A stretch of DNA of 64,000 bases from Ulva prolifera. Its lineage: Eukaryota; Chlorophyta; Ulvophyceae; Ulvales; Ulvaceae. Of the stretch, positions 1,834 to 31,461 are shown piece by piece. Position numbers and translations under genes: made by a program. Position 1 is the stretch's first letter. The number at the start of each line of letters is the position of its first letter. The notes beneath the pieces were generated by a model. That model worked only from the letters and a program-made list of their open reading frames with translations. It did not search any database and had not been told where the DNA came from. Location: the NCBI GenBank assembly GCA_023078555.1, contig CM041198.1, positions 6,982,686-7,046,685 of the forward strand, written 5' to 3'.

Positions 1834-2059
1834 ATAATTTGCATTTCGGCATAATGCATGGATGCTGACGCTTGGACAGCTAATGTAAACCGAAGCGACT
1901 GTCGAGGGAGGTGCAGGTGCCAGCTATAACCGGCCGTTGCGCGATAGCCAGGAAACACACCACCACTCACAGCTACGAAGTACAACACTTGTGTCCCAGT
2001 ACTAGAAGGCGACTACATAATTGTCCGTCGCGCCGACTGCCACCTACTGCTCCGATAAA

Positions 2060-5000
2060 ATGGTAGGCCGCAAGATAGGCAGCAAATTCTGCATATACCA
2101 AAACAATGTCTATCAATGCCCGGACTGTTTGGGGCGCTGTAGGACACGGGACCGAATGAGGTACCACTTCCAGAAGCAAACAATTCATAACGGGCGTGTT
2201 GTGGCATGTCAAGTGCCTAAAGATGAGGCTTCTATCGCTGCGGAAGAAGCATGGCAAGCGCGTATTGCTGGGAAGAAACGGCGTCTGGAAGAACAGCCTT
2301 GCAGCTCGCCACAGCAGCAGCACTGCCACAGCGGATGCCCGGAATCATGTTCACTGCAGAAGACACGAGCTGATGCCGATGAAGGTCACTGTCATGGTGA
2401 GATACCCAGGCCTGCCTTTCACGTGGTTTACCGCGGTTCGGCCACGGGCATGCGGTCCGCAGTTTTTGACTTGCGTGCGGTAGGACTGCCAAGGTCAGCT
2501 TTTCACGCTGCAGGTGACCAGTCACCTGAGCAAGCTCATAAACCTACCATGGACTCGACACACGTTCCTGTCAACGAGATTGCTGCTGCGATGCTACAAC
2601 GCATCCTTGACAGTGGAGATGACTCCGGCACCATGCCAATCGAGGTACCAGAGGGGGTGGTCGACTACTTACAGGTGAGGATCCACAGTGTCATCATAAC
2701 TGCATGCTGTACAGATACTCCCGGCATCTTTGAGTGGAGCACCTTGCCGGTCTATGTGTGTTCTCACTGAACACGAACCGTCACCTGTAGCCTTTCCATG
2801 CTACAGCGTGGCATGGCATGGATCAGGAGATGTCTACTTGTGTCGGGGGCGGGTACATCAGGGGATTGCATACTACCATGAATTCGTGGAGAACATCCCA
2901 TCAATAGATATGCCTGGCAGGTCGGCTCCCCGCCAACCATATAGCACGCTGCAGGAGCTTTCTGGCATCGACTCGTGCAAACCGGGAGATGATGACATGC
3001 TACATCTCCGGGGTGGGCTTGAAGAGGAGGAAGATCCGGACCTACAGGAGCACGCCGATGACGCAGAAGCATACTTTCAGGCTCTTGGCTTGCCGAATCT
3101 CTTGGCGGACGAAGAGGAGGAAGCCGACGAGGCGGGGGGGGCAGCCACCAAGGAAGCTTGGCCTCTGGAATTGCTACAGAAGCCACTGTACCCTGGCTGT
3201 CAATACACTGTCCAGCAGTTTTGCTACGCCCTGTTCCGAGTGAAGACCGGATCCATCCGGGATGACAGAGCAGATCTATTGTGCAAACTCATGGCCCAAG
3301 TTATGCCAGAGGGATATCTGGGACCCAAGTACGTCCATCAGGCCTAGCGGCAGCGACACCACAATGCTGCCACCTATGCTGACTAGTTTCCAGCGCCTCA
3401 TACTTGGGCACTACTAGCATCCGGGTATCGAGAGTGCAGGAGCTATCATGAACTCAAGCAGGCGAACCGAGTTCAACCAGCAGCCGCATTTGAGCACCAT
3501 ATCTGCCCGGTGTCAAGTTGTAGCCACGTCTTTGCCAAAATTCAGAAAGGCGAGTGGGAGCAACACCGGAATGACATTTGCCCCCACTGTGGCCATGGAC
3601 GGCGGTTCAAAAAGTCGGCGGGTCACCTGCAGGCCTCGAGAAGGTTCGTTTACCCCCGACACGACTCAATGCACACCCACCTGAGCACCTGCACCGCGAC
3701 CGTTGCATGAAATTTTTTCCAGGGGAGCAGCATGCACTGTAACATAGTGTTGAATGTAGGATGTGGGATCTCGGCATTGAGAGCGCTATGGCCAAATTCC
3801 TGGAGGACCCTGAGATCAGGCAATGCATCAAAGACAAGCTGCATCGCACCACAGCTGACCCCCAGACGTATTACGGATCACAGGCATTCAAAAATCTGAA
3901 TGACGACTGCGCGGGTGCTCTCATGATGCACAATGTCCTCACCATGCTCATCAGCATAGGAGGTGACGGAGTGCAGTTGCTGAACTGGGGCAAACGGACT
4001 GCCACTGTCATTGCAGTCAAGTGCGAAGACTTGCCAATGCACATTGTCCAGACAGCGCGAGCAGTGGCTCCTCTGATCATTATCGAGGGACCTACAGAGC
4101 CTGGCACTCTGGACCACATTCTCAAGCACACCGTTGATTTCCTATGTGACCACGCCCCATCACGGACCACAGGCAGTGCGAGCTCAGCCCACTCAGACTC
4201 CACCACTCTGTGCTGAACGCGGTGTCATGAAGTGCGCCCATGCTTGCAGACGTTGACGGTATTCCGATGGCTTGGAGCGCCCCGCACCCATTCCATGTGG
4301 CAGCCAATCAAGCAGCAGAAGCTCTGAAAGCGGCGGAGGCTGTCCACGCAGCAGCTGTGATTGCCAAAAATGCGGATCCGGACAACGACGTTGCAAGTGC
4401 TCAGCTACTCGGGGCACAAACTGCACTTGACACCGCGTCTCAGGCAATGCATCAAGCTGCAGAGGCAGCGAGTGTCGTGTTGCCGGTCGTGCTGGAGCAC
4501 TGGTTTCCAGTATTGATGGCACTACATGGGGACACACCATTTGCCGCGAAACTCCGGCATTCGGTGGGGATTGCTGCTCCAGCAGCATGCCCTCGCTGCA
4601 TGCTGTTGGCGTCAAAGAGGAAGCCGACGGAAGATGGGTCCCCCGGAGACACAGTACTGAACGCCACATCGTATGGAGGCTGTGCATGCAAGGCTGAAAG
4701 AAATGCTCCAATCGTGCCTGAAGCCGGACCTTGCAGCATGTCTACACATGCAGGCTTCGAATACTCTGCTGAGGATGGCTCATTTGACAAAGAGGCAGCA
4801 AAGCTCCTCTTGATTGATGACGATCTGGACGAGCTCATCGCGGAAGCTGCCTTGGTGGCAACAGAAAAAGAGAGAGAGATCTACGTGACGGAGCTGAACA
4901 ACAAATTGGCTGCCCTTGGGCCAAATGCTACCGTGCAGGACAAAGCCAAGGGTACGTTCCAATTAATCCATACTCATCGATACTCTCATGTGCAAGAAAA

Positions 5001-6962
5001 GTAGCAGGATCGCTAGGTGATTCAATCAAGAGAACTGCATACACAACATGATCATCAACATCGGCGAGATGTGCACCGTGCAGTGTACGAGAGTGAGTTC
5101 GAGAAATTCCAAAAAGAGTGCAACAAGAAACACCTGCCATTGGGTCGTAATGGGAAATGTGTGTTCAGCAGACTACCATACTACAGGTTAGCGTCCGGTC
5201 ATGACTGCGTTGATGTGCTTCGTGAGCCTATTGCATGTCACTCGCAGTACACCACCGGGCTATGCTCTGCAGGCCAGAGGCTATGCATCGCATCCCGCTA
5301 GCACACGCTTTCTGTAATGGCCTGATCAAAGGCTTCTGGGCGCTCATGGCGAGGAGTGGCAAGGTGCCGCTGCGACAAGGCAACGACATTATACTGTCAA
5401 GAGACGCGCGGAAGGCAATAAAAGCGCAAGTTGCTGAGCTTCGAGGAACCACATGCTTCACCGCAGCTCTGCCGGACATCGTCCAGTGCGCACTTGATGC
5501 AACTGCTGAATAGCTTGAGCAGCGAGGTGTACGTGTGCATGTCAGGGTGTATGCATTGAGGCCAGCACGCTGGCACCGTGTGGCATTGCCAAGCATTACC
5601 ACCTCTGACCGTAATCTCCAAACATTCTGGCGCATGCAGTGGCTCCAACATGACGATGGAGGACAAACTCACCTGGGCGGACACTGTATCCGCTTATGCC
5701 CTGCATGAAGCGGGAGTGGACGAGAGGATTCTGGAGATGTGGGGACATCTCCGCACTGCAGTGGTATACTTCATGCGATATCAAGAAGGTCAACATCAAC
5801 CGGAGCACATTGATGCTGCCCAAGATGCACTGTTTCAGTACAGCGTCCTCGTCCAGGAGCACTTTGACACCAACCACCTGATGACATTTCAACTGCATAC
5901 ATGCATGGCACACGTAGCAGAGCAGGCTCGCCTCTGCGGGCCCACTGCATTTGCTGCGGAGTGGTGGCTCGAGAGGTGCATGCAGGTTTTCAAACGAATC
6001 ACAAAGTACCGCTCTACACGCCACCCAGAATGTGTGGGAACCAATCACTTCTTGGCTGTCCAAGCACTGGACAAGATCGCCTCTTGCTGCCCACAGTCAA
6101 CTGCGCTCTTGGACAAGATCGACCCCCCTGCAGGACGCACCAGAAAAGGTGCCCGGGACGACACTGCGGGTGACGAGTGGCTCGCTGGGCCCATTCAAGA
6201 TGTGAGCGATGACCATCTCGCGGTGAGGACCATACACCCTCTTCATTTTGATCCACAAACGCCGTGTACCACAAACACCGTGTACATGCCCATTGTTGCA
6301 TTGCAACGAGCACGTCCGTGGTTGTGCACCTGGTCCTCTTCATGCAGGTCACACGGGTCAAGCAGGCACTGCAGGCCACAAGCCTGAAAGCCGCTGGAGA
6401 CACCGAGGCATTGTGGTCCGAGGCGGGAGGCCTGCTGAATCCGGGTCTGTTGGGTGGCAATGGTGCCAACGGGCAACCACGCGTCCGGTTGTTTCGCAGT
6501 AAGATGGCTTCGTGTAAGGGAGGCCACTTCCTCGTGAGGACCACCGAGGCCAAGACTTCAAAAGTTGACTACTTGGCGTACGTGCCATTCCTGCTAGATG
6601 GAGGCCAAGGGAATGCAGAAGGCGGAGTAGGTGCCATCAACACAGTGATGAAGATCTCTGATATCTTCTTGTGGCAGGAGACATCAGCAGATGGAGTTGT
6701 TCGGAAAACACGCTTTCTGCTGGGGGAAATGCATGAACTGCAGCCTGTGGGAGATCCGCTGCACGGGTATGAAGTGCGGTATACGGACACATCCATTGGA
6801 GAAAGGCTCAGAAAGCCGTCGTTGCTACAGAAGAAGCCACTCGTACAAGGAGGGGCGGGCTATACTTACGGAGTGCGACTAGACCAGGTGGACTGTACTC
6901 TAGTGAGCACTCGGAACGAACAGTTTTTCGTTCCAACACTGAAGATGTCTACGTTTGGTTAG
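2060..6962 (+). CDS. TNP2-like CACTA (Transposase_21-type) transposase, copy A, multi-exon
   Basis: This encodes a transposase of the En/Spm (CACTA) TNP2 type, which would cut and join element ends in the nucleus. The chosen start, ATG at 2060, opens a Cys-rich N terminus (CPDC and a following His). Family landmarks are read in order. At 3444-3610 there is a Cys/His pair block (CPVSSC, then DICPHCG). At 3760-4150 comes the DG-QLL ... APLIIIEGPTEPGTL ... TVDFL block, then GD-PFAAKLRH ... CPRC near 4530-4610. Next are the H-FCNGLIKGFW block at 5290-5340 and the CGPTAFAAEWWLERCMQ block at 5938-5990. The C-terminal exon runs 6349-6962 and ends in TAG. Good splice borders include GTGAGG at 2676, GTACGT at 3328 and GTACGT at 4953. 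The acceptor near 3443 restores the frame after the 3328 donor. The reading frame may be intact if all introns splice. The sequence is clearly diverged from copy B. Confidence 0.82.
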
Positions 6963-12986: not shown

Positions 12987-13178
12987 GGTTTTTAAATGTC
13001 TTCTCCAAGATACGGCTGAGTAAATCTAAATGAACTTTACTTTACATGTCCATCTCAGATCAATGCTGGAATAGGCCGCTAATTGAAACTTTCGCCTTAT
13101 GGGGCCGTTGCACATAACATCGCGCTCGGAACGCCGCGTCCAGGCGGCCACCTGGGCAAATGGTAGCGCCGCTGTAGT

Positions 13179-13440
13179 CACTACCAGCACTGAGTTGTCC
13201 TTATGCATGCCCTATCCGAGCATCACGGTGAGGCAGCCATATACTGTCCTTACAATCACCTTAAGGCCAACATAGTCCTTACAGTGGGGACCAGGCCGGC
13301 ACAAGGATCTTAAGGACTCTCGGTTGTGTCCCTATGGTAAGGACTAAATCGGGCTTGGCTTTGGTCGTATGGAGCTGGTGTGTAAGGACACGGTAATGAT
13401 CAACCCGGGACAGGCTGCGCATCTGACTGCTAGGCCAACA
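13179..13440. repeat. CACTA left terminus and subterminal motif cluster
   Basis: After the 25-bp terminal repeat, ACTGTCCTTAC / TAAGGAC motifs recur in both orientations: near 13233, 13272, 13309, 13340 and 13381. In plant CACTA elements such subterminal clusters bind the accessory protein. Here the binding role is inferred from position only. Confidence 0.85.
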
Positions 13441-14616
13441 CAAGGATACAAATTGCCGTAGGATTCCAGCCGTGTTAACCGCATGAAACTACAAGTTGAC
13501 CGTAAACGTTAATGATTGGTGTTATCGTATTGGTGAGTACAGCATGTGGTGGTGTTTGCTCAGCGTCCTGTGAAGCATTGACTCGATGATAATATCCATG
13601 CCTTCTGTTTTCAAGTTCTCCCGTGTGATAGAATTTGGCTGTGGTCAGACACAATGCTATGCCGATTTCCAGCTGCAATGCCAATAAGCTATGCACACAT
13701 GTGCGGAGCTGCAATAGGCACTTTTGCGCTTCCACTGCCTTGATTTGCTCACAAGAGACACTGTGTAATTGCTTTATTCTATGAGGACTGCAAAAAGCTG
13801 ATTCATTTTGTTGGTAGAATGCTAACAGTCCAACAGGGGCATGACAGCATTTCCTCGATGTACCTGGTCTACTGGACTTCGTACAGAAAGTAACGTCGGC
13901 ATGAGCAATAATGAAATACGTATATTACAGTGCGATCTGCGCTTTGTTGTACAGAGGGATGATGCATTTATTACGTCCTGGCAAACCGAGTCCGCAGGGA
14001 CCACTCGAACTCAGCTTCGCGAAACGGAATTCAGGCTCGGCAATGTACACACTGCGCGGATCTCAATCCAATGGCTACATCACTGCAGATCGAGTCGTCA
14101 AACCCGCGTACCTAGTGGTGTGTTTCCGCGTGAGGTGTGCTTGCCATACCCGAACGCCTCCTACAGTACGAGTACTGCTCATCGATCACATAATGATTCA
14201 GCTGTGGTCTTATAAAATTCACCAAGCAAGGTCGAGTTCATGGACCTGCCTACTTTCACTTACAAAAGTAGGTGTGACAATTCGCTGCTGTTTTCTGATC
14301 GCTGCGTGAACATGGCCGCAACGTGGCTTCAGTTGCAGCATGCGTGAGCGCAGACATTTTTTTTTCTCCTGACGAACGTCTTTCAATGAAGCTATCCATA
14401 ACATGTACGATACAGGTGCCCTTCTTTATTGTAATAGGACACAACAGCGTGCTCGTTTACACTTGTTCACGAGTCCTTGCACACTGACAGCCTGGGTACG
14501 AGACTATAACGGGGCTACCTGCTGTGACGTAGTTGTACCCCTTATTCATGCCCCAAGGGAGTCTTTTTTGGCGTGAACCTAAAGGTGACGTGTGTCTCGA
14601 TGTGTGTACATGTGGG
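13441..14616. other. CACTA 5' non-coding region
   Basis: No exon with recognisable content lies between the left subterminal repeats and the promoter-proximal hairpin. Open frames at 13841-14215 and 13911-14309 overlap each other in different frames and look like chance. Confidence 0.4.
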
Positions 14617-14649
14617 GTGCGCGTCTACAGCTATGCTGTAGACGCGCAC
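14617..14649. promoter_or_regulatory. perfect 14-bp hairpin upstream of the transposase
   Basis: GTGCGCGTCTACAG is followed by CTATG and then by its exact complement CTGTAGACGCGCAC. It sits 27 bp upstream of a TATA motif and about 280 bp before the TNP2-B start codon. A protein-binding site or an RNA hairpin are both possible; the sequence alone does not decide. Confidence 0.6.
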
Positions 14650-14675
14650 ACGCCGGCCTTTGTCTGCGGGAGGTA

Positions 14676-14686
14676 GTATATATATA
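14676..14686 (+). promoter_or_regulatory. TATA-box candidate for TNP2-B
   Basis: TATATATATAC lies about 245 bp upstream of the TNP2-B ATG, in otherwise mixed sequence and just after the hairpin. It is the only good TATA match near the gene. Confidence 0.45.
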
Positions 14687-14929
14687 CAACTGGTTGGACA
14701 TACTCAGTCAACTTCAACAACGCACACCCTCTTTACACTTGCAGTGAGCGACGACGTTGTAAATGTGGCAGACAAGCCTCGCGAGTATGGCATCGGGACG
14801 ACGTTTGAGACCTCCACATCGGAAGCAAGCTAAGATGACAGTTGTTAGGACATGAGCGTTCGCAGCAAGTAGGTTGAGCCATGACTGACGATTGTGAGGA
14901 GGAGTACTCCGGGCACTGCATAGTCTTCC

Positions 14930-17900
14930 ATGGAGCGAGAGGCTGCAGTGACAGCTGCGCTGGGGTTGCCTGCTTTCGATGCAAGGGAACTTCAGGGTAC
15001 TTGGAAACTTGTGTGCAAGTTTTGTGAAGAGACAAGAGCGAATTGCGCCCCTGGTACATCGAACCGGGTCAACAGAGGAATTGTCGCAAGCACCAAGGCA
15101 GCGAAGCGTCATCTAGCTTCTTGCCATCGCACCAGTGGCAATCCGGAACGGAATTGTTCCCACGACGATCAAGCACTTTCAGGACAGCAGCATAGAAGAG
15201 GACCAGCCCCTCCAAATTCTGTAGGTTGTGCGGTTGTGGTTGATAGCCAAGCCCACGTTGCGATTGGGTCCGAACCCGGGGGCGTGCTACTTCAAGTTGA
15301 CCAAAATGCATATGCCAGAGAGCCATCAGGCGGTAATGGCTCAAGCGCCCCGACAACAGGTTCGTCTGCGCATGCCCAATCTAACAGTGTCGCAGCTTCA
15401 GACAGTGCCGGGCCTGCTCCAAAATCTCCAGTCTCGCAATCGATTGACAGTATCGCAGCTACCGTCGATTCCCAACCAAGCTATGCTTATTCTACTAGCG
15501 AGGATGAACGAGTTAGAGATGATGCTGGCAAGGCAGACGAAGGTTCAATTGATGGACCCATTGCTAGTGATGGTGAGGGGGCGTTCTGTTCCGGAGTTCC
15601 ACAGTACGGGCTGGAGTCCGACACTGAATCCCAAGGCGATTACAGCGATGACAGTGACAGCCGCCTCGGGCCTCTGCCAAGAATGCCGCGCAAGCAGTCA
15701 GGCGCGTGGCTCAGGTCAAGACGGCTAGAACCTCTTGCCACCAACCACGAGAGGTCCGTGCTACAAGCCGCCTACAATCAGGTCGAGATTAAGAAGCATG
15801 GAGCCAGCAACACTGTTCTAGAGATGATCGCGGAAGACAATTACCGTCTGCTATCTGGTTTCAAGGGAGAACATAAACCACATGAGATTCTCTTGCCCCA
15901 CTCCATGCACATGGTGAAACAAGTGCTAGGCACAGAGGACGCGGCCAAGTATGAATTCGGGTGGTGCAGCGAGTGCGCCATGCGCTTTGAAGTTGATCCC
16001 GACAAGGCCACCAAGACCAGGGAGCAGTAGCTGCAAGAGACTTGTCCACGATGCGGCTATCACAAGTATGAGGTATGTCCTCTGATCTTATTAATAAGAA
16101 CATCTTGTTTACATTGTTGACATGATTATGAGTGTATCCACCAGAGTCACATCTTTATGTGCCTTGTGTTGATGTGCCTTGTACATTATCCTATTATGGT
16201 GTCCCGCGGCGAATTCGAATTTCATCCTATGTGCATATGCAACAGCTGCGCATTTTTGCTCCCATACATAATTTGTTTTCTATTGGTCCAGGCTGCGTCA
16301 GCAAGAACCGTAAAGTTCAACCGAAGAGGATGGGATTTCACAATGGAGGCCGTAATTAAGTGGTTTCACGAGGACGAAGCTTTTCGTGAGGCAGTGCTTG
16401 CGGCCCATCCTTTGGACTTCACTGATGCCGATGGCGTGGCCGGGTCCCTGTACCTCAATATGCTCAACGAGGATTGCAAAAATGTTCTCTCGAAGCGTAC
16501 CGATGCTTTTGGTGCAGGAATTTATGGCATGGGTGTGATCATGTTCGAACCTATGCCACACTGTGGGTGTCAAACCGCGTGGGGCACAATGATGCAGTAC
16601 TTCAATGCGTTGGCACCGATTGCTAGTTGCATGCCCTCAATCCATATCTCTACTATGTACTCGACATGTGGTCGAACCACGTATCGTCTTAACACCATTG
16701 AGTACCGGTAATGCTAGCGTTGCCTCACCTATTCTACGCATGTGCAGGAGCTGATGGTGGCAACATCTTCAAGCTAAGAATTGGCAGTACTACCATTGTC
16801 GGCGTGAGACGCTACGATCTACATGTCGCAAAAAATGCCAGCTGCCTATCATGGCAGCCTCTCATCATTCTGGAAGGTCCTACGGAGCCGTCTCAATTGG
16901 AAGACATTTTGAAGCCAACTGTGGACTTCTTTGTCAACCACGACCCAGGTACATCCTCTTATCGAGGATGCCCCAATATCCAATATCTTATACACACAGT
17001 TTTCAGTCGGTAGTAGCTGAGTGACCAATGTGTTGAAAAGGGGGTCAATTGACTTCGTGGATCCTGCCATGCGCAGGTCGGGAGGGCACAGAACCGTTTG
17101 AATTCACAATTTTCCCAGGAGGAAGGGAGATGCGCATACAACACTGGCCTGTGCTTGCTTTCGTGGAAGGAGACCTAATGATGATGTATAAACTCATGTT
17201 GACGCTGCCACACAGTGCAGTTGAGGCTTGCCCACGTTGCGCTCTTCAGGGGAAGTCCATCAAGAATGCCATGAGGTGAGGTTCAGCGGTGACGTGGCCG
17301 TGCAAACTTGTATGCCACCTGTGCAGATCCTGGCTATACACTAGTTGCCACACCAACCAGTGCACCTCAAGAGTGCATTTTTGGAGGATCCTAGGCACAC
17401 AGTGATGTGACATGTGCTTGTAGGTTTCCGTACGAGACGAATGTACCTCGAAAAATGCCCGCCACTAAAGATGCAAAGCGGATCCCGGACATTCGCAAGA
17501 GGGACCACGTACCTCGTCAGCTGGGTGTCCCCGCTGGGTACGCAGGGGAGGATCCGCCGGTCTCACGCTCACAACTACCACCATGCCATGCAGAGTCTTT
17601 GCGGAACGGTGCCCGTCTCACCGATGATGAAGCTGATTGGGACGACACCGAAGAGTTAAAGTACACTGCGTACGAGATGCATGAACGCGCGCAAAGTGTG
17701 CAAGATCAGTGGGACAAGTCCCTGAGGAATTTGTCGCCGCCTCTGCACCAACAAGATCCTGAAGCTCGCAAAAAGTCTTGGAAGAAGCTCAAGAGTGATG
17801 CAGAAAAGGTTCAAACGGAGACTGGCCTACGTGGGATGCCAGGGTATAGCAGGCTCAGTTACTTCAGGTGCGTGCGTGAATCACTGGAAGCCATGAGTGT

Positions 17901-19725
17901 CGGAAGACACCCATCATGATCAAGGACACGCGTACGTCTTGTAGGTATGAACATTTTTTCCACTTTGCGTTGGCGCATCTACTGTTGTACGGCATCGTCC
18001 GGGATTTCTGGAATGTGTGGCTTCGCCCAGAAGACCCAAAACCAAAGGCTGATGGATCCAAACCAAAACGAAGAAAGAAACATCGACTCCACGGAAACAA
18101 GTACGTTCTTCCTAAGTACATCCGGGAGGTCATCAAGAGACGGGCAGCCAAGATGCACTGGACAGCACAAATGAAGAAGCGCAGCGCTGATGTACTCGGG
18201 TATGATGACACCACCGTTTCTCTAGGGCGTGCATAGTGACGAATCACCACCGGTGTCACCCTAGTGCGTCTATTTGACTTGGATTTTGCGCTGCAGGAGT
18301 AGGTCTACTTGGACAATGGAGGAGTACATGACCTTCGTAGAAACGTGCTCGCCATTCCTCCTATTCGAGCTTCCCTGGAAGGATGAAGATTCTGTGGTGA
18401 AAGAAATGTTTGAACTTCAGTGGGGCAGCCTTCGCCGGGCGGTAATGTTTTGCCTACGCCAGCAGCATACAGAGCACCATACTCTCAAGCGTCTGGCCCA
18501 AGCCCGAGAGGACTTTGAGACATACGCCTTTGCTGCCCAGCAGGTGTGGTGTTGCCGTTGTCCGTGAAGAGAGAGAGATTTGTTCCTCATGTATACATAT
18601 ACATGAGATGTACTGGCCGATGCACTGCAGGCTTTTCATGGCTTGGTGTTGACGACCGCCAAACTACATCATTCAGTGGTGCATGTCATCGACCAGCTCT
18701 GTTGTCAAGGTCCCGGATCTCTGTACACCGAGTATTGGATTGAACGCATGATCTGGTATCTGAAGTTGCACTTGAAAGATCGAGTCAATGATAATGGTGA
18801 AGTTACGTTTGTGAACGACCATTTGCTCATGGTCTCTGCTCAGTCATGCCGGTGCATGTACCCAGAACACTGTTTGACAATTGAGGAGAGGCGTGAGAAG
18901 CCATCTGCCGTGGCCTTCCCCGAGTATGATGTCTCTTCTGAAGACGTCTTGTTATTAGGCCCCTCGAACAAAAGAGGCCTGACCGAAGAGCAGGAGCTAT
19001 GTGTCATTCAACAGCTTCCAGGGTTACTTAGAGTGGAAGGCGAATCTCGCAAATGGTACAGAGACCGCGGGTGGCCTGCGATTCATGACTTCGTTATGCA
19101 TCGGATGCACAAGAAGAACAGATTCATGCTTGATAAGTATATGCAGGCCTCGCTTCCGTCGATGGATGTGCTCACTTGCAATGATGATTGCAGGCATGTA
19201 GTCACGGACAACAGATGGGTGTTTGTGGGGTACACGTATGATGATAATACCGAATGCCCTTGTGTAGCTCAGGTGCAAGCGTTTGTCCGTGTGCGGACCA
19301 GTAACGGGGCTTCCAAAGCGTTTGATCCCCGAGGGTGTGTCCACAGAGAAGAGGTGGACCAATACATTGTCCCGTCCGACATTCCGGGGAAGTCTATCCC
19401 CGCCCAGCCTCTTCGTATGGCAATTTGCAAGCTATGGGCAGCTGATATCCTAGATTGCGATGCCATTGGCAGCCCCGATCGTCAGCCTGGTAGCGTCCCA
19501 GACTTACTGAAGGTGCATCACATGGGTGACACCGAAGCCAACCAACTAGCGCCATCTGCGCGGCGCCGGAGTGGTACAAGATGCTACTTTGGATTGAATC
19601 TAGTTAATTTATCTGAAGTGTGGAGCCAGCTGGTTCCGTCTCAAACTTTTCAAAATGATCTAGCCAGAGGTGGAACTCGAGAAAGTCAAGTCTTCATGAC
19701 TTGTTCAAAGTTATCAGGAAAGTAA
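14930..19725 (+). CDS. TNP2-like CACTA transposase, copy B, multi-exon with one in-frame TAG
   Basis: This is the transposase of the 13179-25480 element. It starts at ATG 14930 with a Cys/His finger (CKFCEETRANC ... HLASCH). An acidic, Ser-rich linker follows, then a GWCSEC ... CPRCG block. In order come RRGWDFTMEAVIKWF (16318 on), PLIILEGPTEPSQLEDILKPTVDF (16858-16930), GDLMMMYK ... CPRC (17170-17245), EHFFHFALAHLLLYGIVRDFW (17950-18012) and GPGSLYTEYWIERM (18712-18750). A long C-terminal exon follows. Good borders include GTATGT at 16073, the acceptor before 17077 and the acceptor before 18627. The CPRCG exon is interrupted by TAG at 16028-16030, with clear family sequence continuing in the same frame. 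TGTAA at 19737-19741 lies 12 bp after the stop. Confidence 0.88.
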
Positions 19726-19839
19726 TAACCACAGTTTGTAATTTAGAGTTTCTATTCGTACTGATCTCGGCTGTATGGGCCATTGCTTCCGTCGCCACAT
19801 GGTGTACTATGCTTTTGCACATGCGCATTCAAACATCGG

Positions 19840-21228
19840 CAGTGGATGGATGGATCCTCGATCTGTCTTTTGCAGAAACGAGTCACGTTGAAATGTGCAT
19901 GGGAATTGGGGTTGCCTGTGTGCGGTGCACCATGGTGGCCCCGCAGTTTGAAGCGGCCTACCGGTCATCCAAGCTGAGAGCCACAGGCCAGCTACACCTG
20001 TGACATGAACTTTCAGGTGCACCCCAGCTGACCTCAATTCCCACACTATTCGTGAGTTGGTATCAAGCTGTGATGGGCCTAAGGACCAGCTGGCACCCAT
20101 GCACGCCACTGCATACTGTGATAGTCTCGACTTGGGCTGGAATTGCCACAAAATGCACGTAGCTGTCGGAGTTTATATCTGAGCAGTGGATGGATGGATC
20201 CTCGATCTGTCTTTTGCAGAAACGAGTCACGTTGAAATGTGCATGGGAATTGGGGTTGCCTGTGTGCGGTGCACCATGGTGGCCCCGCAGTTTGAAGCGG
20301 CCTACCGGTAATCCAAGCTGAGAGCCACAGGCCAGCTGTTGTGGGATATCCATATCTGGGGATCCAAGAATATAGATGACATAATCAAGGGAGGAGTCAT
20401 CTAACAAAGGACTCGTTGCTTCAGGTGAGCCCCAATGGTAGAGCATGTCGTGTGTACTCACAAGGTCACCGGTTCAATTCTTACTTTCATTTCTGCCACG
20501 CGACTTTACGCGATGGCAAGGTACGCTCCCCTCCACGTCGTCATGCACAGTCAGCATGCTTACCAGCTCAGGCACGCGCATTAACCCCTGTGCACACTCG
20601 ATGAGACTAACACGCGTCTTGACACCAGCTACACCTGTGACATGAACTTTCAGGTGCACCCCAGCTGACATCAATTCCCACACTATTCGTGAGTTGGTAT
20701 CAAGCTGTGATGGGCCTAAGGACCAGCTGGCACCCATGCACGCCACTGCATACTGTGATAGTCTCGACTTGGGCTGGAATTGCCACAAAATGCACGTAGC
20801 TGTCGGAGTTTATATCTGAGCAGTGGATGGATGGATCCTCGATCTGTCTTTTGCAGAAACGAGTCACGTTGAAATGTGCATGGGAATTTGGGTTGCCTGT
20901 GTGCGGTGCACCATGGTGGCCCCGCAGTTTGAAGCGGCCTACCGGTCATCCAAGCTGAGAGCCACAGGCCAGCTACACCTGTGACATGAACTTTCAGGTG
21001 CACCCCAGCTGACCTCAATTCCCACACTATTCGTGAGTTGGTATCAAGCTGTGATGGGCCTAAGGACCAGCTGGCACCCATGCACGCCACTGCATACTGT
21101 GATAGTCTCGACTTGGGCTGGAATTGCCACAAAATGCACGTAGCTGTCGGAGTTTATATCTGAGCAGTGGATGGATGGATCCTCGATCTGTCTTTTGCAG
21201 AAACGAGTCACGTTGAAATGTGCATGGG
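19840..21228. repeat. 344-bp tandem array inside the CACTA element
   Basis: Units begin (CAGTGGATGGATGG) at 19840, 20184, 20821 and 21165. The normal spacing is 344 bp. The second unit is longer by exactly 293 bp because of an insertion. The fourth is cut off after about 64 bp. Copies are almost identical, so the array is young or kept uniform. It separates the two genes of the element. No coding role is apparent. Confidence 0.93.
20338..20630 (+). mobile_element. 293-bp insertion with tRNA-like core, 6-bp target duplication
   Basis: Comparing array units shows this block was inserted after CCAGCT at 20332-20337, and that CCAGCT is repeated at its right end, 20625-20630. About 95 bp in is a tRNA-like stretch, including CCAATGGTAGAGCATG (A-box-like) and CCGGTTCAATTC, which fits the pol III B-box consensus GWTCRANNC. 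It resembles a SINE, but the tRNA-like part is not at the very end. It is not the same family as the 12.8-kb SINE by eye. Confidence 0.6.
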
Positions 21229-21449
21229 TCCCGCCTGATACGTTGGGCCTGCCTTTATGCAAGGATCGGGGGGATGTTAGATGCATATGGACAGCTTCGC
21301 ATGCATGCTGCCACATGAATGCACCTCAACAACGAGCTCCAGGTCTACTCAATTCAAATGCACAGACCTCAATATAGCCAAACTCATACACGCTCGCCTC
21401 TCTGTGTCCGAGTATTGTCATACTGTAACCTTACCTATCACAACATACC

Positions 21450-24400
21450 ATGAGCGGCCTACCTAAAGAAATTAGCCAAAGCACAGATGCCATCGAGGAA
21501 GGGGGTCTGATAACCGTACTATGGGGTGACCGAGGTGAAATGAGCTTTCAGATAGGCCACGATTACTCGCATGAGGAGCAAACGCTGATGTTTGAAGCTG
21601 CATGCTCTCTGGGGCACGCCTCGCCCGACGACGACGACGACACGGAGCTCTTGGGTAAGAAAGCAGCGTACGTCCGGGTCGGCAAGGAGTATCGACTAAA
21701 GAAACTCTGGCGGATATTCGAGGACATCAAAGCGCTTCTGAAAGGGGAGGCAAGGGACATCTTGCGTGACGGGAAGATCCTTGTCGTGAGAGAGAAGGAA
21801 GGGGCACAACCCATCGCGACGAGGAAGACTCGCAAGCCGGGGACAGCCATGCAGAAAGTACGCCAGATATGCAGATGATGTCAGATACTGCGGCAGCGAG
21901 ATCGACGGTGGCCGTTGTAGTGTCGATTCGATACTGTTATGCTCGATGTTACCTTGAACCAGCCAGTCCGCAAGCATGCCGGCAGATGGTCATCGACAGG
22001 GAGACGCCCGTGAGATCCTTATGATCTGTGACCTCTGCAGGAACTGATGAGGTACTTTATGTGGGGAGCTCCCATGGCGTCTGACATCGAGGCCATCGCG
22101 AAGTCCGTCAACAAGGCCGCCCTCTCCGCCGAAGGCAAAGCTGCCTTGGACACGGTTCTCGATATGTTCTCAGAAGAGCAATATTGCGTGGCAACTCGCG
22201 AACTCGGTGGCAACATTCTCACCCGACTGGTACGCCCGACCTGCGCTGATGCTGAACGATGCATCATGATAACCTTCGCGTCGTGTACGTCAAGAGAACG
22301 AACACACGGCGTCAATGCAAAAAACGATATTTACTCTGCTTATATAAGATAGTTTCGTGTCGAACCCATGGAGCAGTGTTGGGGCCGAATGTTTGTGTGC
22401 GCTTGAAGGCCTGAGGAGTATTCGTAGCACGATTATGCATGGTAGTAGAGGCTCACCTGAGCGAAACATGATTGATGACTGCAGCGACACGTGCCTACAT
22501 CCGACAAACCTGAGCTCAGAGGCGTGCGGCGGGCTGCGAGGGCCGTAGAGGCATTCTACGCCAAGCCCTATGAGGCGGGCGGCCTCCCCGCGGATGTCTT
22601 CAAAATGACGGTGAAGCAAGTGAATAACACAAACTCACTCGTGCGCACGCTCGCACGCAATAACAAGATTTCTACGATCCAAGATGCAAAGACAAACTGT
22701 GACTCCGCCAGAGGCATCATCAAGGCGCGAATTGTAGAATTATCCCAGGTACGGATTGGCATAGTTTGATTATCCGGAGGTAACTTTAACCGACCGATCT
22801 CTGTATGGGGTGCATGAATCAACTGCGCGTGTGTAGAAGGTCATGACAACGTCTGATGGGATGCGTGCGCCTAGCATCATGGACTCTCCCGTGGAGGAGC
22901 GCGAGGCTACACTCGCGTCACTCCGCAAGGAGGGATACTTGACCATGAAAGAGTGGCTGCGACAGGGGCTGGTGCCGGTGCTACCTTTTCAGCTTCCCCC
23001 GGATGAATCCATGGCAGCCCAGCGATTACCCGTACGACACCCCCTTGCTACGATGCGTCACGCCAGCCGCAGCGATACGATCGCATGGTTTCGTGATAGT
23101 GGCGATCGCTACCGTCATGATCATCTTAGTCTGCCAACCGATGTCGGATCCGCTTGTCACACTGAATGATTAATCCCTTGCATAGCAACGCTGATCGCGA
23201 CCAGCGGATGGGAAGCCCAGTTAGCTCGTTGCAGTGACGGAGCCATGAACATTTAGACAAGAAATGGCATCACGAAAGACTAATTTGCTCCTTGCAGTCA
23301 AGCAACTGCAGCAGTCAAGGCACCACAGCCGCTCAGCGCAAAGCAGGGAAGCGGAAGTCCAGACAGATGGGCAGCCTACCCAGTCTTAGTGAGGACGAGG
23401 CTGATGACCATCAAGCAGTGAGCCAAGATGACGACGGCATTGGGACAGATCGTGACGGCGAGGTACGATGCCATGCTGGGCCTACGTGCACTGATTCACA
23501 TTCGATGGCTCGCACCCTCGCAGCGCACACACAGTCACTTGCCTGCATTTGACGCCCGAGTGTATGTCCAACAGCCGGGGTTTTAAGCCCCTCACGCAGG
23601 CTTGGCGAGGCAGGAAGCTGCTGCTCAAACATAATCATGTGCTTGGATTGCCACAGAAACTTGATGTGTAGGATGATGATGTTCTGGTCGGATTGAGGAT
23701 GAAGGATGTCGTAGCGCTGAAGAGACATCACGACCATAACACAACTCGTAGAGCTGAAGGCTCAGGATCACAGCAAGATGACGAAACGGCCGGGGACGAG
23801 AATGTACCTATCAACATGCAGAATCTGGACCCCCCAGGTGAGCGTGGTGTCAGTGACCAGCATTCGCATCCTGATCAAGCGCTAGACGCCCGGCAGCAAG
23901 CATTGGCCAGGTTAGGGGTTGATGTGGTGCCTTCAAAGCCTGCTCCTCTAACAGGCGAGGATGATCTGCCAGACGTTCACAAACCCGTCCGGCAAAGCCG
24001 TCGCAACAAGTCCCAACAGCCCCGCACAACAAAGCCACACAAGAAGGCCAAGACAACATCAAATCAGGATGTGGGGTCAGCTGCCGGCGAATCCTCTCAG
24101 CCGAAGTCGGGAACTGTTGCAGATATCCTAGAAGGTTCTCTCCACAAAGACGCAATCAAGATGGCTGGTGCGTATCCCTAGCACGTGTACTTGATAACTC
24201 TTGGCTGACCCTCAGAATAGTTGGTGTGCATTACCATTTATTGTGGGCGATATCGCCCTCTCCAAATTGAATAGAAGGGAGGCTGTGTTCCCCGCTCCAT
24301 CTGCTGGCAGTTGACATGATGTGATTTGCCAATGTAGGTGTGACTCTTGATGATCGGGTTGTCTCGGGCATAGACGATGCAGCTTTTGTCAAGGAAATGA

Positions 24401-24837
24401 CCATCAAGGCTGGAACAATGAGCGGCAAAAAGCATCAACCTTTGCGAGTAGGAAAGGCTAAAGAGTCACTGACCGAGATGAAGGTAACCCACCCCCGTGC
24501 GTTAGGCCCAACATGGCTATTTCAGTCCAATAGCAACGGGCTATTGAGTGCATACGTTGCATACAGCTTGCCTGACAGCATTGCCAGATGACCTAGGTCT
24601 CTGCTTGTGTCTACCTGTAGGCGTATCACTAGTACCGCTCCATACGTATGCCATGATTCCACTTGACAACGCGGTAGACGTGTGCAGAATCTACTCATTG
24701 AGTACATTGATGATCAAGCACTCCTGGCAAGACTCAAGGCCGCAGATCCGCGTGATGATGATGCGGTTGCACGGAAGGAAGGCGCTCTGGAGCGGCTGCT
24801 CTCCGCCATTGCCAACTTCTGTGACATTCCGGTGTGA
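21450..24837 (+). CDS. second CACTA gene, unrecognised; TNPA-like position
   Basis: I do not recognise this protein. The start is ATG 21450. Clear exons are 21450-21858, 22041-22229, about 22491-22748, 22840 onward, 23298-23463, about 23750-24165, 24337-24482 and 24690-24837, ending in TGA. Donors include GTACGC at 22230 and GTACGG at 22749. Acceptors include TCTGCAG before 22041, TGCAG before 23298 and GTGCAG before 24690. Features seen are a stretch of five aspartates in exon 1, helical charged segments, a Ser/Gln/Asp-rich middle and a strongly basic block (QSRRNKSQQPRTTKPHKKAK). The C terminus is helical, around NLLIEYIDDQALLARL. The basic block suggests DNA binding or nuclear import. By position it corresponds to TNPA of En/Spm, but I see no sequence similarity. 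Confidence 0.7.
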
Positions 24838-25480
24838 GAGCTAGCTTTCACGTTGACTGGCGTGATTGTCAAGTTTGTAGATCTACATAATGTTGTTAAT
24901 CGAAGGCTCATTCGGTTTGTCTTCCTCTCATCTAGGGGGGTTTGGTTTTATAGTTAGCCTCCGATTAGTTGCAATGTAATGGTGTGTAGACCACGGCAGC
25001 TAGCTCAACTGTGAGTAGTGCATGTAGACCAATGGACCATGGGTAACGATGAATGATTGCAGTTCCATTTGTAGTACCACTATATCCACACATTCAGGGC
25101 ACTAGATCGGCCTAATGACTGCTCTCAATATGGGCTCAACCGTGGCACAGCCGTCGGGCCGGGAATATGTTGTATCCACCTTGTCCCAAAGTGGGCCTTA
25201 CGGTATCTCCTTCTCAGCAGTATACTGTCCCTATGGTGTCCCGCCGTTCGTCCTAACGGTGTCCTATCGTTCGGGAACGTATTAGGTTAGGATGTCCTTA
25301 CTGTAAGGAAGAATCCTTCGTGTCTTATAGTGTCCTTATGATGTCATTAAGTAAGGACAGGCGGCTGCCCCCAATCCTCATTCGGGCCTTATTCTCGCCT
25401 TATACTGTCCCTACGCCCTATATAAGGACAGTATAATGACGCAATAAGGCCGGGGTAAGGACAACTCAGTGCTGGTAGTG
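24838..25480. repeat. CACTA right subterminal repeats and terminus
   Basis: From about 25180 the sequence is packed with GTCCTTA / TAAGGAC / ACTGTCCCTA motifs in both orientations, densest at 25290-25470. It then ends in the 25-bp inverted repeat. The same motifs occupy the left end. No exon is seen between 24838 and 25180. Confidence 0.85.
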
Positions 25481-26240
25481 AGTGTGGCCGTGTTGGATCG
25501 GCAGCGCCCTCGTTTGTCTGTGCACGTCTTTTTCAAGCAGCTGCGATGACCCATCGACATCATGCGAATGTCCATGTGTTCGAGGTGTGAGCCGTTCGCT
25601 GTTCCAATGCTGTGGTCTTCCTCGCACCTGGGTCACCGGTTGCAAAGCTCTGGTGGACGTTTTCTTGCCTGCTGACTGTTTGCGTCGGCAATATCGAATC
25701 TGCGTTGGCCTAAAGCAAGTGTTGCGCTGACGACACGATCCAGCAGCCCCGTTCCGATTGTGAAAAGATTCGCGCACGTGTCTGTGCCGCAAGCGCGCCA
25801 ATGCATTGCGATGGTGCACTCACATGTGGCATAGTCGCATGTGAGGACTCACTGAGGAGTCCACCAGAATCGGATCATGGTGGATACCTACACAGCCATG
25901 AAGCATGCCAATTAGATTTGCACCCCATGTTCAGATCATCACAGACTGCATGCAAACCCACTGCAAAAGACATTGCACTCTAGAGTAGCTAATTAGATAA
26001 TATCTGAGTTCATTAATACCACTGCCGTGGGAAGCTCCATCACAGAGCTCCTTCTTCAACATCCATTATTAGAATTATTAATGTTAGAATTAGAATTACT
26101 CCATTACTAATAGTATGGAGCTCCAGCGTGGAGCTCTATCTTCAAACATCTGAGCTGTGCAGGTACATTCCTGTCACGCCTTCGTAGTTGCCCAAGGTGC
26201 TCACAGCCACTGCATGGCAACGCGTGAGGGGGCACCCCAG
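25481..26240. other. flank between CACTA element and SRCR gene
   Basis: No supportable gene. Overlapping frames on both strands at 25466-25819 have no recognisable domain. 25985-26110 is AT-rich with several GAGCTC palindromes (GGAGCTCCAGCGTGGAGCTC). The right-hand AGT target duplication of the CACTA element is at 25481-25483. Confidence 0.4.
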
Positions 26241-26940: not shown

Positions 26941-29900
26941 AGGTGGGGAGGGTACCCCCAGGAGAGGCTGGTGGACAGGGTGGACGTAAATGGTTGTGCG
27001 ACCGGCACGCTGCAGGTGTTCTGCGAGTGTGCCTGCGGCGCAGTCTGCACCACCAGCTTTGACGATCGTGATGCTCAGGTGGCGTGCCGCCAGCTTGGCT
27101 TTGCTGCCGGCGTCAGCACGCCACAGGAGTCTGGGTTTAGACGCCCTCCACCGAACCCGGTATGCGGCGCACTGGCTGGATCTGCGGTCGCTCTCAAAGC
27201 CAGTCCATCTGTGCAACTTCTGTCTGGGAATTCCATGTGTGCACATGAATGTATCCATATTGAAGCAGCACAGAATTGCTTTTGTTTGCGTCGGCCTCAA
27301 AGAGTGAGCAGTCGTCTCAGAGTCGTTTGGCTGGCAGACACATCCTGCAGAGCTACACACACAATGCAGATCGCGTGGTCAGTACCTGCGCCTACTTCAG
27401 ACCTCTTCTGTTCAGTCCTGTACGCTCTTCGATGAGTGATTCGCCTGCAGGAGGAGATCGCCCCGTTCGCTCTGGAGAACCTCCGCTGCCAGGGCAACGA
27501 GATCCACCTCGCGGACTGCCCCGTCCAGGATCCCGCTGAGCCCGAGAATGGCCGAGAGTCTGACTATAGCTTCAGGGACTACAACGAAGATGCCTGCGAT
27601 CCATTCCTAGGCCCCTTTGCCACTGTTGCTTGCGGCACAAGCACATCTGCAGGTACCCCCCCGCGCCTGCTCCGCCCGCATGGTACTCACACATTGTACT
27701 GCAATATGCATGGCATACATGCATGCGCATACATGAATGACTACCGTGCGGGTAGGCATTTCGAGGCGTGTGCTGCAGGCGAGGGTGACATGCGGCTGGC
27801 GCAGAGTGTGGCCGCAGCAGACGGCAGTGCAGAGTACGGCCGCCTCGAGATCTTCCACGAAGGCGGCTGGGGAACTGTATGTGATAACGCCTTCATCAAC
27901 AGGTTCCAGCGCTCTCTCGACCTCAGCGACGGCGCCGCAAATGGCGCATGTAGGCAGCTCGGCTACGGAGAGGGCTTTCAGATCCAGCTAGGCATTGGTA
28001 TGTGTCGTTGCCGAGCTAACGTGCCTGTGCTCGCGGTGCTGACTTCACCCCGTTGCTGCCGACATGTCTATGCCATAACGGCATTGTCGTCGCTGGCGGC
28101 GGACTGGACCCGCCAGTCGCCGGGTTCTTAAGCTCCCGTCCTGCGGAGTTTCCATCGTCATAATTCACACTGTGTCAGCGTTCTGCACTGTATTTTTATG
28201 CGTGTGACCTGGGCGCATGCCGGGAATCAGTCGGCGCGTCAGAGAGTACATCTCGTGTTCCAACGGAGCTGTCCGAGGATCTGGCTGGGCTGGAGTGTTC
28301 ATTGCGTTCCTTACAGGAAGATGCGGCTGCAGACAGCACGGACCCCATACCGATTGTCCTGCCAGGGTCAAATTGTGTCGGCGAAGAACAAACACTGGAA
28401 ATGTGCCCGAACTTCAGGCTGGGCCGGCTCGGTGTTGCTTGCCGCCACGTGCTTGCCGCCACGTGCACGACGCTGATGTCTACCTCGTCTGCTTCAAAGG
28501 ACCCACTGGCAACCATGGTGCGTTTATGGGTCTGCCTGGCACGAGATGGGATCATAGTGCATATGATATGCACTGCTGCCGAGCACCGGAAGTAGCCTGT
28601 CGTGCATATTCCTTGCATTTCCATGTTCGCGTGTGCGACCATTACTAATGTAGTAGGTGCTTCTTCTCTCTGCTTGGGCAGTTCTGGACAGCCACAGAGA
28701 ATGAACAGCGAGCACAGTCGTCCATACCGCTGACTTGGAAAAACATCATCTTCGAGTGCAGAGGTGGACGGTGCCACCAGACTTGTGGACGGGTCTACCG
28801 ATCCTCAAGGCCAGTTTGAGTACGGCTGGCTGGAGATCTTTGCTCAAGGGTTCTGGAGCAAAATCTGCAACAATGATCGCTTCACTCCTGACTCTGCACA
28901 GGTGGCCTGCAGGGCCCTTGCGCAACGTAACGTTACGACGGGGGGGGCAGCGCTTCGCTTTACACAGTCATACGCTCAGTCACTGAGTCCGGTGTGAGAC
29001 TGCTCCATTTCTGTCTCATGCATGGTTTTCATGCATGGCTATCAGGAAAGCCTGCGATGTTACGCAGTCCGCACCTCCCGCGGGTGCCCTCTGGAGGCCC
29101 ACGTATAACCTTACCATGAGCACCTTGTGCAAGCAAAAGCTGTAGCTATATATAGGCATGTGCACGTGCCTGCAAGCTACAGCTGTGGTTACATGCGTGC
29201 CTATATATATGTAGTGCACGTGCACGCGTAAGAACTCAAGTGATCGGTAAATATGTGGTCACTCAAAACCCAGTAAGCCTGCGTTCACTTGTGCGCATGT
29301 GTACAGTCCATGCCGGCGGGCAGGCGCGGTCCATGCCGGCATCACCTCAGCATCAGAAAATCCCTAGAACTGTGTGCAGGTCCTCTTTGAGTCTCTGCCA
29401 GTAGCCCTGGCGGGGGGTGGACTGTGACGGGAACGAGTTCTCCATCAGCGAGTGCCAGAGAAACAACGTCATTGGGGACTGCAGTGACGACACTGATGCC
29501 ACCGTCCTCGCTTGCGCCCTCGCTTCCCCTGGTGTGAGACATGCCATCAGACGTCTTGCAGGCTGCATTACATCTAGAAGATCTTGGATTGCAATTGATG
29601 CCAATATACGTGCATGTTCCGTGATGTTTTGGGTGTTGCAATCGCTCGCGAGCGATTGCACAGTGCATGCCTCCCCCATGTGCAAACATTGCTACAGATC
29701 TAGATAGATGCTCCCTTGGAAATCCACAATGCATATGCTTGCCGTGCTTCTGTTGCTTGGCCCCATGGCCGGGCTCTGCCGGAATTGAAAAGTCGGCAAG
29801 TCTGTGCAGCGTGGTGCATCTATCCCTGCCGAGTGTAATGATCCGATATTTGCTGCACAGTGCCTTGCAATTGCTGCCGTCACATGCAACATCTGGAACT

Positions 29901-31020
29901 GTCGATCCTAGAGAATACAGCGCCGACCTACAAACAAAACAACCTCTATAATGTGACATCACGGCCTGGCTTGTAGAATGCAACAGGACAGACGGGATCA
30001 CCGAGGGCTCCGTGAGGCTTCGGGGCGGCTTCAGCACCCCCTGCGACCCTGTCCACTCCGGCTTCATTGAGATCCTGCACTTTGATGAGTGGGGCAGCAT
30101 CTGTACTGTCAACCGTGCAGAGGACCGAGCTGAAGACCTCGTGGCGGACGTGGTGTGCCGGCAGCTCGGCTTCCCCCACGGCAACCGCGTCGACCCCCTC
30201 ACCGCCCACGCTCCTCCCCCCGAAGATGAGGCCATGTCACCATACAGCACATACTACTATTCGTATTTTGACTACAATATCACAGAGGAGGCTGAGGAGC
30301 TGGTGGAGCGGTACTGGCTGAACTCCGTGGCCTGTGCGGGGCTCGAGTCCGCGCTGATCCAGTGTAATCTTCGGGAAGGCTTCAGGCTGAACAACGCTGG
30401 GTGCGGAAGGCAGCCGAAGCGGCTACACATCGCGTGCAGGCAGTTCCCAGTTGTGGAGGCGCTTGAAGAGATCACCACCCCCGGGGCTGGTGCGGCCAAT
30501 GCATCTATAGTACATTCACAACTTCAGTTCAGGAATTCCTGTGTACTCGGTGGCTGAACTCGCCGACTCTTTGTTACGCCATTCCCCTGGACAGAGCAGC
30601 ATGTCAAAGGCACTTGCGTTGTGCAGCGGAGGGCGACCTGCGGCCGATGGACCAAGGCGAGATTAACAACTGGACATCAGGTCGCCTGCAAGTATTCTTT
30701 GAGGGCTCTTGGAGCCAGGCCTGCTTGACGGGCTTCGATGCTCCGGACGCCAGCGTCGCCTGCCGCCAGCTCGGGTTCGGTGCTGGAACTTTGGTACCGC
30801 AAGCCCTCTCTACGGAGGAGCTGCCAGTGGACGAGCTGCGCCGCACGAACATCTTCCCTGAAATCGCCATCACCGGAGCGAGCTGCACAGGCACGGAGAG
30901 AGGCTGGTCGACTGTAGTGCAGATGAGGGTCCGGGGGCAGGTGATTACTTTTACAGTGGGGGCTTTGGCCGTGACTACCTCAGTTCAGAGTGCGAGGGCC
31001 TTGTGCTCGGATGTGTCACT
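26941..31020 (+). CDS. multi-domain SRCR (scavenger receptor cysteine-rich) protein gene
   Basis: At least five SRCR domains lie in a row on the plus strand. SRCR domains are extracellular, disulphide-bonded modules that bind ligands. Domain 1 has its first half at 26941-27110 (ERLV ... GTLQVFCECACGAVC ... AQVACRQLGF) and its second half at 27451-27650 (LENLRCQGNEIHLADC). Domain 2 is at 27777-27996 (GRLEIFHEGGWGTVCDNAF ... ACRQLGYGEG) and 28319-28460 (NCVGEEQTLEMC). Domain 3 is at 28757-28985 and 29412-29520. Domain 4 is complete at about 29976-30460. Domain 5 is at 30612-31020. Each of domains 1-3 is split by an intron in mid-domain. Donor GTATGT at 27997 and pyrimidine-rich acceptors support the splicing. 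Domain 5 has a frame change in the run GAGAGAG at 30896-30902, after which the family pattern continues as RLVDCSADEG. With the upstream hydrophobic segment it may be a membrane receptor. The frameshift suggests the 3' end is decaying. Confidence 0.85.
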
Positions 31021-31461
31021 GCCCCCCTCCAGGGCCTGGCCGCAGGTGTTTCCTTCCGTCCGTGCCCCCTGCTTCATATCGACATCGGCTTTTATGCAGT
31101 GTGTATTGGCTACTGTCATTGCAGTGGACGTATCATGAGCAGCTGTGTGCTTGCTGCCGGCATGGCCATTTTATAGTCTACCGACAACGCGGAAACAGGT
31201 ATCTCAGTTAATCAAGGCAGAGAACGCTGCTGCTCAGTGGTTAAAGTTGTGTCGCAGCGTCACAGCTCTGCAACTTCGCCGAATGTGAATTGCTTGTCAT
31301 CTCACGCACTGTATTTCTCATACATGGTGTCGTGTTGTTTCCCCGCTGAATGTTAACAACTGTGTCAGACTGTTGATCGGCGATGTCTTTAGCTGCATTT
31401 CAAGTGAGCAGTAACGTGCAGGGACGGAGGGGAACGTTCGTCTGACATACATCACTGTGTG

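Follow-up and report, generated by a model that had tools for sequence, protein, structure and literature searches.

A conserved second gene in a CACTA-type transposon of Ulva prolifera and its candidate role as a TNPA-like accessory protein

INTRODUCTION

The maize element Spm requires both TNPA and TNPD, and TNPA recognises subterminal repeats, according to the available excerpts of two reports (PMC2613891, PMC1636069). The first of these excerpts describes the motif-binding proteins of CACTA elements as showing little mutual similarity (PMC2613891), and the accessible part of a third report presents a second open reading frame (ORF) as a normal, fast-evolving component of the CACTA layout (PMC4158355). 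Here we analyse a stretch of 64,000 nucleotides from the chlorophyte Ulva prolifera (assembly GCA_023078555.1, contig CM041198.1, positions 6,982,686 to 7,046,685; hereafter the window), which holds a CACTA-type element, copy W, with a transposase gene and a second gene, gene 2.

Like TNPA of maize En/Spm, TNP1 of Tam1 and CACTA 'ORF2', gene 2 is a second, fast-evolving multi-exon gene beside the transposase, and, as in the TNPA/TNP1 systems, the ends of its element carry dense short direct and inverted repeats that short elements retain. Unlike TNPA and TNP1, gene 2 has no detectable similarity to any Pfam family, TNPA-type included, and its N-terminus contains a predicted beta-grasp domain. 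Furthermore, it was modelled with an ATG of its own rather than within a shared, alternatively spliced unit, in a model drawn from sequence and not from transcripts.

RESULTS

Structure of gene 2 and its element

Gene 2 consists of eight exons at window positions 21450-24837 on the plus strand (2,013 nt including the stop codon, 670 amino acids), with GT/AG borders at all seven introns.

21450-21857, plus strand: gene 2 exon 1, predicted beta-grasp domain at about residues 19-115
22041-22229, plus strand: gene 2 exon 2
22485-22748, plus strand: gene 2 exon 3, three helices predicted with low confidence
22837-23031, plus strand: gene 2 exon 4
23298-23462, plus strand: gene 2 exon 5, with an invariant, NLS-like (nuclear localisation signal-like) KRK
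23672-24167, plus strand: gene 2 exon 6
24338-24483, plus strand: gene 2 exon 7
24688-24837, plus strand: gene 2 exon 8 and stop codon

A preliminary description of this DNA had proposed a gene of eight or more exons in this interval, with a basic patch and an acidic run. The eight exons splice cleanly, and both features are present: the KRK at residues 370-372, which is invariant in all four family members, a further basic patch (KPHKKAK) in exon 6, and the acidic DDDDD at residues 60-64.

The element spans window positions 13179-25480, 12,302 bp from end to end. Its terminal inverted repeats (TIRs), CACTACCAGCACTGAG, are exact and inverted, and they are the two matches found in the window with up to 2 mismatches, against 0.08 expected. 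The target-site duplication AGT (3 bp) flanks the element on both sides.

13176-13178, unstranded: left target-site duplication (AGT)
13179-13194, plus strand: left terminal inverted repeat CACTACCAGCACTGAG, exact match
13179-13478, unstranded: left subterminal region with 6 TAAGGAC sites on both strands, from motif count
25181-25480, unstranded: right subterminal region with 5 TAAGGAC sites on both strands, from motif count
25465-25480, minus strand: right terminal inverted repeat, exact match
25481-25483, unstranded: right target-site duplication (AGT)

As expected of CACTA elements, the TIRs start with CACTA and end with TAGTG, and all seven full-length copies have CACTACCAGCACTGAG ends. 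No tRNA or Rfam features were found here. The element had been described as complete, at 12.3 kb; its structure is so, with TIRs, AGT duplication and full length, but its transposase frame is interrupted by an in-frame stop at 16028-16030, which is absent from the other six young copies. By the gene model, W would therefore need a partner to move.

Copies in the genome and linkage to the transposase

The 88.9-Mb assembly contains 37 exact copies of the CACTACCAGCACTGAG 16-mer (19 forward, 18 reverse) and none of the reversed-pattern control. Of these, 26 form pairs that bound seven full-length elements (W and A-F, 11.7-13.0 kb) and six short elements of about 2.9 kb, and the other 11 are unpaired ends. 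Over long aligned blocks, copies A-F match W at 98.7-99.8% identity, and all six align without gaps to its right 4,856 bp; the full-length copies vary in length mostly through a 344-bp array of 2 to 6 motif-bearing units. The gene 2 frame is open in all seven of these young copies, and in copy C the acceptor AG of intron 6 is gone. Their gene 2 exons differ at nine codons (five amino-acid-changing, four silent, no stops), too few for a selection test.

A tblastn search of the genome identified five older gene 2 places besides the young copies, together with one place that matches exon 1 only.

C2:7477382-7480798: older place G, 67-93% identical to W by exon
C2:7112443-7109010: older place H
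C3:5465098-5461508: older place I
C3:6187276-6183713: older place, sister of I (identity not measured)
C9:965980-962459: older place J
C3:7113812-7114213: gene 2 exon 1 only, with no transposase exon 8 match there

The gene 2 proteins of H, I and J are about 38-40% identical to that of W. When the genome was searched with transposase exon 8, 113 matches were obtained, 14 of which, at 58-100% identity, fall in 12 places: the seven young copies, G, H, I, the sister of I, and J. Gene 2 lies downstream on the same strand in every one of these 12 places, at a distance from exon 8 of about 0.6 kb (H) to 3.5 kb (I). The remaining 99 matches are at most 44% identical, and none of them lies at a gene 2 match of E <=0.01. 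The genome searches scored the best candidates only (66 of 69 and 66 of 81 for gene 2), and among these no gene 2 relative at E <=0.01 lies outside the element places, save for the exon-1-only place. Elsewhere in the window, including beside a second CACTA-like transposase at 2021-6962, there is likewise no relative; a single exon 3 match (E 0.33), inside that transposase, was taken as chance. The preliminary description had likened the placement of gene 2 to that of TNPA in En/Spm, and the prospect, also raised there, that other copies would lack the gene did not materialise.

The older elements are partly delimited. Copy I has CACTAGTAGCACCGAGTTG inverted at both ends, 15.4 kb apart and with 3 mismatches to W, and no 3-bp duplication. 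H has one such end, CACTAGCAGCACCGAGTTG, beyond gene 2, its other end not being among the matches listed; this TIR search, at <=3 mismatches, gave 102 matches against 17 for the reversed pattern. In G, about 5.2 kb of extra DNA lies between gene 2 and the right end.

Perfect 3-bp duplications flank five of the seven full-length copies (W, A, C, D and E, not B and F) and the short copies s44, s47 and s48, not s43, s45 and s46. The latter three (L043, L045, L046; C2:3.80 Mb, C3:3.33 Mb, C3:8.27 Mb) have identical 12-bp flanks, so the element was probably copied along with its surroundings. In megablast, the six short elements have only the right 277 bp in common with W (97-98%); a left stretch of 221 bp is matched at about 80% via the end L012, which is identical to s44 over the latter's first 1,272 bp. 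At L011/L012 (C2, 12172067 to 12174101), a second TIR follows a right TIR at a distance of exactly 2,034 bp, and the spacing is equal at L024/L025 (C4, 6525456 to 6527490). L012 carries the left portion of a short element (100% identity over 1,272 bp) and L025 the right portion, inverted (94% over 1,516 bp).

Purifying selection on gene 2

Gene 2 models of H, I and J were built from splice sites. H encodes 675 amino acids without a stop, the model of I contains one stop, and that of J a frameshift and two stops. Two acceptor AGs are gone from G, as are 5 nt of its exon 3. Spliced alignment with the W protein gave W, H, I and J a common residue (within one) and phase for introns 1, 2, 3, 6 and 7, and also for intron 4 in H. 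Intron 4 of I and J and intron 5 of H, I and J were set by hand from GT donors and AG acceptors, and these agree with W in phase, except for intron 4 of J, where the frameshift precedes the donor. Chance ORFs were ruled out by the conserved introns and the codon-position pattern.

The gene 2 proteins of W, H, I and J are 38-53% identical, with a middle part (exons 5-6) that aligns poorly. Over all codons, the ratio of non-synonymous to synonymous substitution (dN/dS), calculated by the method of Nei and Gojobori (NG86), is 0.25 (W-H), 0.22 (W-I), 0.29 (W-J), 0.30 (H-I), 0.27 (H-J) and 0.28 (I-J), values that are rough because dS is 1.3-2.7 over all codons and, for W against H, I and J, near saturation. 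The better-aligned blocks gave 0.19-0.30. When the W-H divergence was simulated without selection, 50 runs averaged 0.96 and never fell below 0.77. The ratio of 0.53 for W-G is expected, since copy G has since decayed. Between W and H, identity is 63% for transposase exon 8 over the 298 codons compared (68% over the whole exon), with dS beyond measure for this exon, and 41% for gene 2. Gene 2 is under purifying selection in related elements, and the conservation with low dN/dS that had been named as support was found, at values well below 1.

Sequence searches and predicted structure

As the preliminary description had anticipated, gene 2 could not be assigned to any family. Among 5.8 billion proteins, no homologue was found at E <=1 with a single sequence or a four-member profile (best 7,999 candidates each), and the single sequence gave none at E <=1 among Protein Data Bank (PDB) sequences; the profile gave two PDB matches (E 2 and 4.9), taken as chance. 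The Pfam profile search was negative as well: none of the four members matched a TNPA-type family at E <=1, and the sub-threshold matches to SYMPK_PTA1_N (0.04) and phiKZ_IP (0.015), each in one of the four, were taken as chance. Structure models cover exons 1 and 3. For exon 1 a ubiquitin-like beta-grasp is predicted, whose nearest, weak matches are PB1 domains (NBR1, p62), and the exon 3 model is of low confidence and too weak to search.

In the open-access literature on CACTA second genes and algal CACTA elements, the titles and abstract openings listed mention no gene-2-like protein, so an earlier description is possible. As to the claim of an undescribed accessory protein, the novelty therefore lies in the sequence family and not in the kind of gene, given that a second ORF is normal in CACTA elements, as far as the accessible part of PMC4158355 describes them.

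Motif arrays at the ends and upstream of gene 2

The ends of the element had been described as dense in short motifs. Counted over both strands of W, the heptamer TAAGGAC has 6 sites in the left 300 bp and 5 in the right 300 bp. Shuffled sequence averages 0.04 and 0.07, respectively, and none of 500 shuffles reaches either count; in the remaining window its density is 0.039 per kb. These counts amount to the subterminal repeat arrays expected of CACTA elements. The arrays are common to diverged copies: the right ends of H and I carry 5 sites each (the left end of I only 1), and the short element s44 carries 3 (left) and 5 (right). By blastn, only the terminal 25-26 bp of the ends align between W and I; for W and H the alignment is limited to 27 bp and, at the right end, the last 94 bp. 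At least 3 of the 5 sites in H and at least 4 of the 5 in I lie outside the alignable stretches, and TAAGGAC has thus outlived alignable sequence.

19839-21228, unstranded: 344-bp tandem array with three motif-bearing units in W and a 287-bp insertion inside

In the interior of W, TAAGGAC is confined to this array (sites at 20080, 20717 and 21061), which is visible by blastn; Tandem Repeats Finder gave no row for the element. In all seven young copies, the sites other than those at the ends belong to the 344-bp units, one to each, in the stretch from the transposase stop to the gene 2 ATG, and number 2, 2, 3, 3, 3, 5 and 6. They are one site amplified, not independent sites. No TAAGGAC was found upstream of gene 2 in the DNA examined there in G and H. 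The 287-bp insertion (20338-20624) has no counterpart in the six other full-length copies. It holds a tRNA-promoter-like stretch, GGTTCAATTC, and is possibly a short interspersed nuclear element (SINE); ARAGORN found no tRNA in it.

Transposase of the element

14930-16072, plus strand: transposase exon 1 (model), with the stop at 16028-16030 seen only in W among seven copies
16292-16707, plus strand: transposase exon 2, 3' boundary uncertain
16748-16948, plus strand: transposase exon 3, 5' boundary uncertain
17077-17275, plus strand: transposase exon 4
17424-17867, plus strand: transposase exon 5
17945-18199, plus strand: transposase exon 6
18297-18543, plus strand: transposase exon 7
18631-19725, plus strand: transposase exon 8, with a DUF4218-like stretch below cut-off

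Pfam matches of the transposase to DUF4218 (E 0.038, 0.13), DUF7560 and PilJ are all below the cut-off. No homologue was found at E <=1 among the 5.8 billion proteins (best 7,990 candidates scored). Genome searches with PF02992 (the test for Transposase_21/tnp2), PF03004 and PF12499 were silent, as were their controls, and are hence uninformative. By eye, the transposase shows a GD...CxxC...WIER order. Its N-terminus has a CxxC...H...CH arrangement.

Other features of the window

Exons of a second, different CACTA-like transposase lie at 2021-6962, with a DUF4218-like stretch (E 0.0044) below the cut-off and an HGDTPFAAKL...CPRC order; no clear CACTA TIR pair for it is among the 25 inverted repeats listed. 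On the minus strand, 48997-54594 is an uninterrupted Copia-type gag-pol frame of 1,865 amino acids with gag, integrase and reverse transcriptase matches, of which only RVT_2 and Pol_BBD exceed the cut-offs. An exon at 27436-28131 encodes a scavenger receptor cysteine-rich (SRCR) domain (Pfam E 4.6e-11), and a similar-looking exon, judged by eye, lies at 30467-31138. A long open frame of tandem 58-codon repeats (174 bp per unit) occupies 676-1854. Telomere-type triplets of TTTAGGG and TTTTAGGG were not found.

DISCUSSION

Gene 2 resides in the element and is conserved together with its transposase, and we lean towards regarding it as the element's own second gene, encoding a family-specific CACTA 'ORF2' protein with TNPA-like function. 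Where it lies, its linkage, how fast it changes and the motif arrays that go with it fit the TNPA niche, and it probably helps the element to move or to stay switched on, as maize Spm's second protein does. A helper that binds the end motifs is suggested by position, linkage and motif arrays; such a protein would most likely bind DNA, multimerise and contact the transposase. Specifically, it would recognise the many TAAGGAC-type repeats within 300 bp of either terminus, multimerise on them, possibly via its N-terminal beta-grasp domain, join both element ends and bring the transposase to the CACTA termini. Through the heptamer in the array that precedes it, gene 2 could also control its own expression. 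In sequence, gene 2 does not fit that niche, with no Pfam match to TNPA or TNP1 in the four members.

The chief rival, to which we give a distinctly smaller chance, holds that gene 2 encodes an anti-silencing or transcription factor like VANC of the Arabidopsis VANDAL elements, which would bind the motif and maintain the element's expression while taking no direct part in strand transfer. Like VANC of these Mutator-like elements (MULE), gene 2 is element-encoded and accompanied by a short motif that tandem-repeat formation has multiplied in non-coding DNA. In the available portion of the report, VANC21 binds a 9-base motif that has spread in this way (PMC5735166), and in the seven young copies the interior heptamers lie in the copy-number-variable array just upstream of gene 2. 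However, VANC belongs to another transposon superfamily and shows no homology to gene 2 by Pfam or protein search. The motif of the present element is mainly subterminal, with its main arrays at both termini, and G and H lack the array motif upstream of gene 2. Moreover, TNPA is reported, in the excerpt available, to be active both in transposition and on its own promoter (PMC1636069), which makes the two roles hard to separate by sequence.

Somewhat less probable still is a division of labour in which binding of the subterminal motif falls to the transposase itself and gene 2 has an unrelated job, such as nuclear import, choice of target or shielding from host proteins, with the beta-grasp as a protein-protein module. 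The CxxC...H...CH arrangement at the transposase N-terminus would fit this, as would the absence of any DNA-binding family or fold seen in gene 2. The models, however, cover only exons 1 and 3, the latter at low confidence, and a DNA-binding part is still possible. Finally, the damage in G, I, J and C might suggest a captured host gene or passenger in neutral decay, as the preliminary description had allowed, but this is very improbable and already contradicted by the genome search, the linkage to the transposase, the conserved intron positions and the low dN/dS.

A bolder extension of the TNPA-like reading, which we regard as speculative and rather unlikely, is that gene 2 represents a new family of transposon proteins, an independent-origin equivalent of TNPA. 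Its PB1-like beta-grasp head would polymerise over TAAGGAC at the ends and upstream of its own gene, and would couple end synapsis to anti-silencing.

CACTA elements are widespread, and their second protein is understood in a few plant elements only. The genome of U. prolifera brings together seven near-identical copies with open gene 2 frames, older relatives, short elements with the same ends and a clear candidate motif, and this set therefore makes it readily testable whether unrelated sequence repeatedly gives rise to CACTA second proteins for one job. If the independent origin is true, the family would be a testable case of a motif and a protein evolving together.
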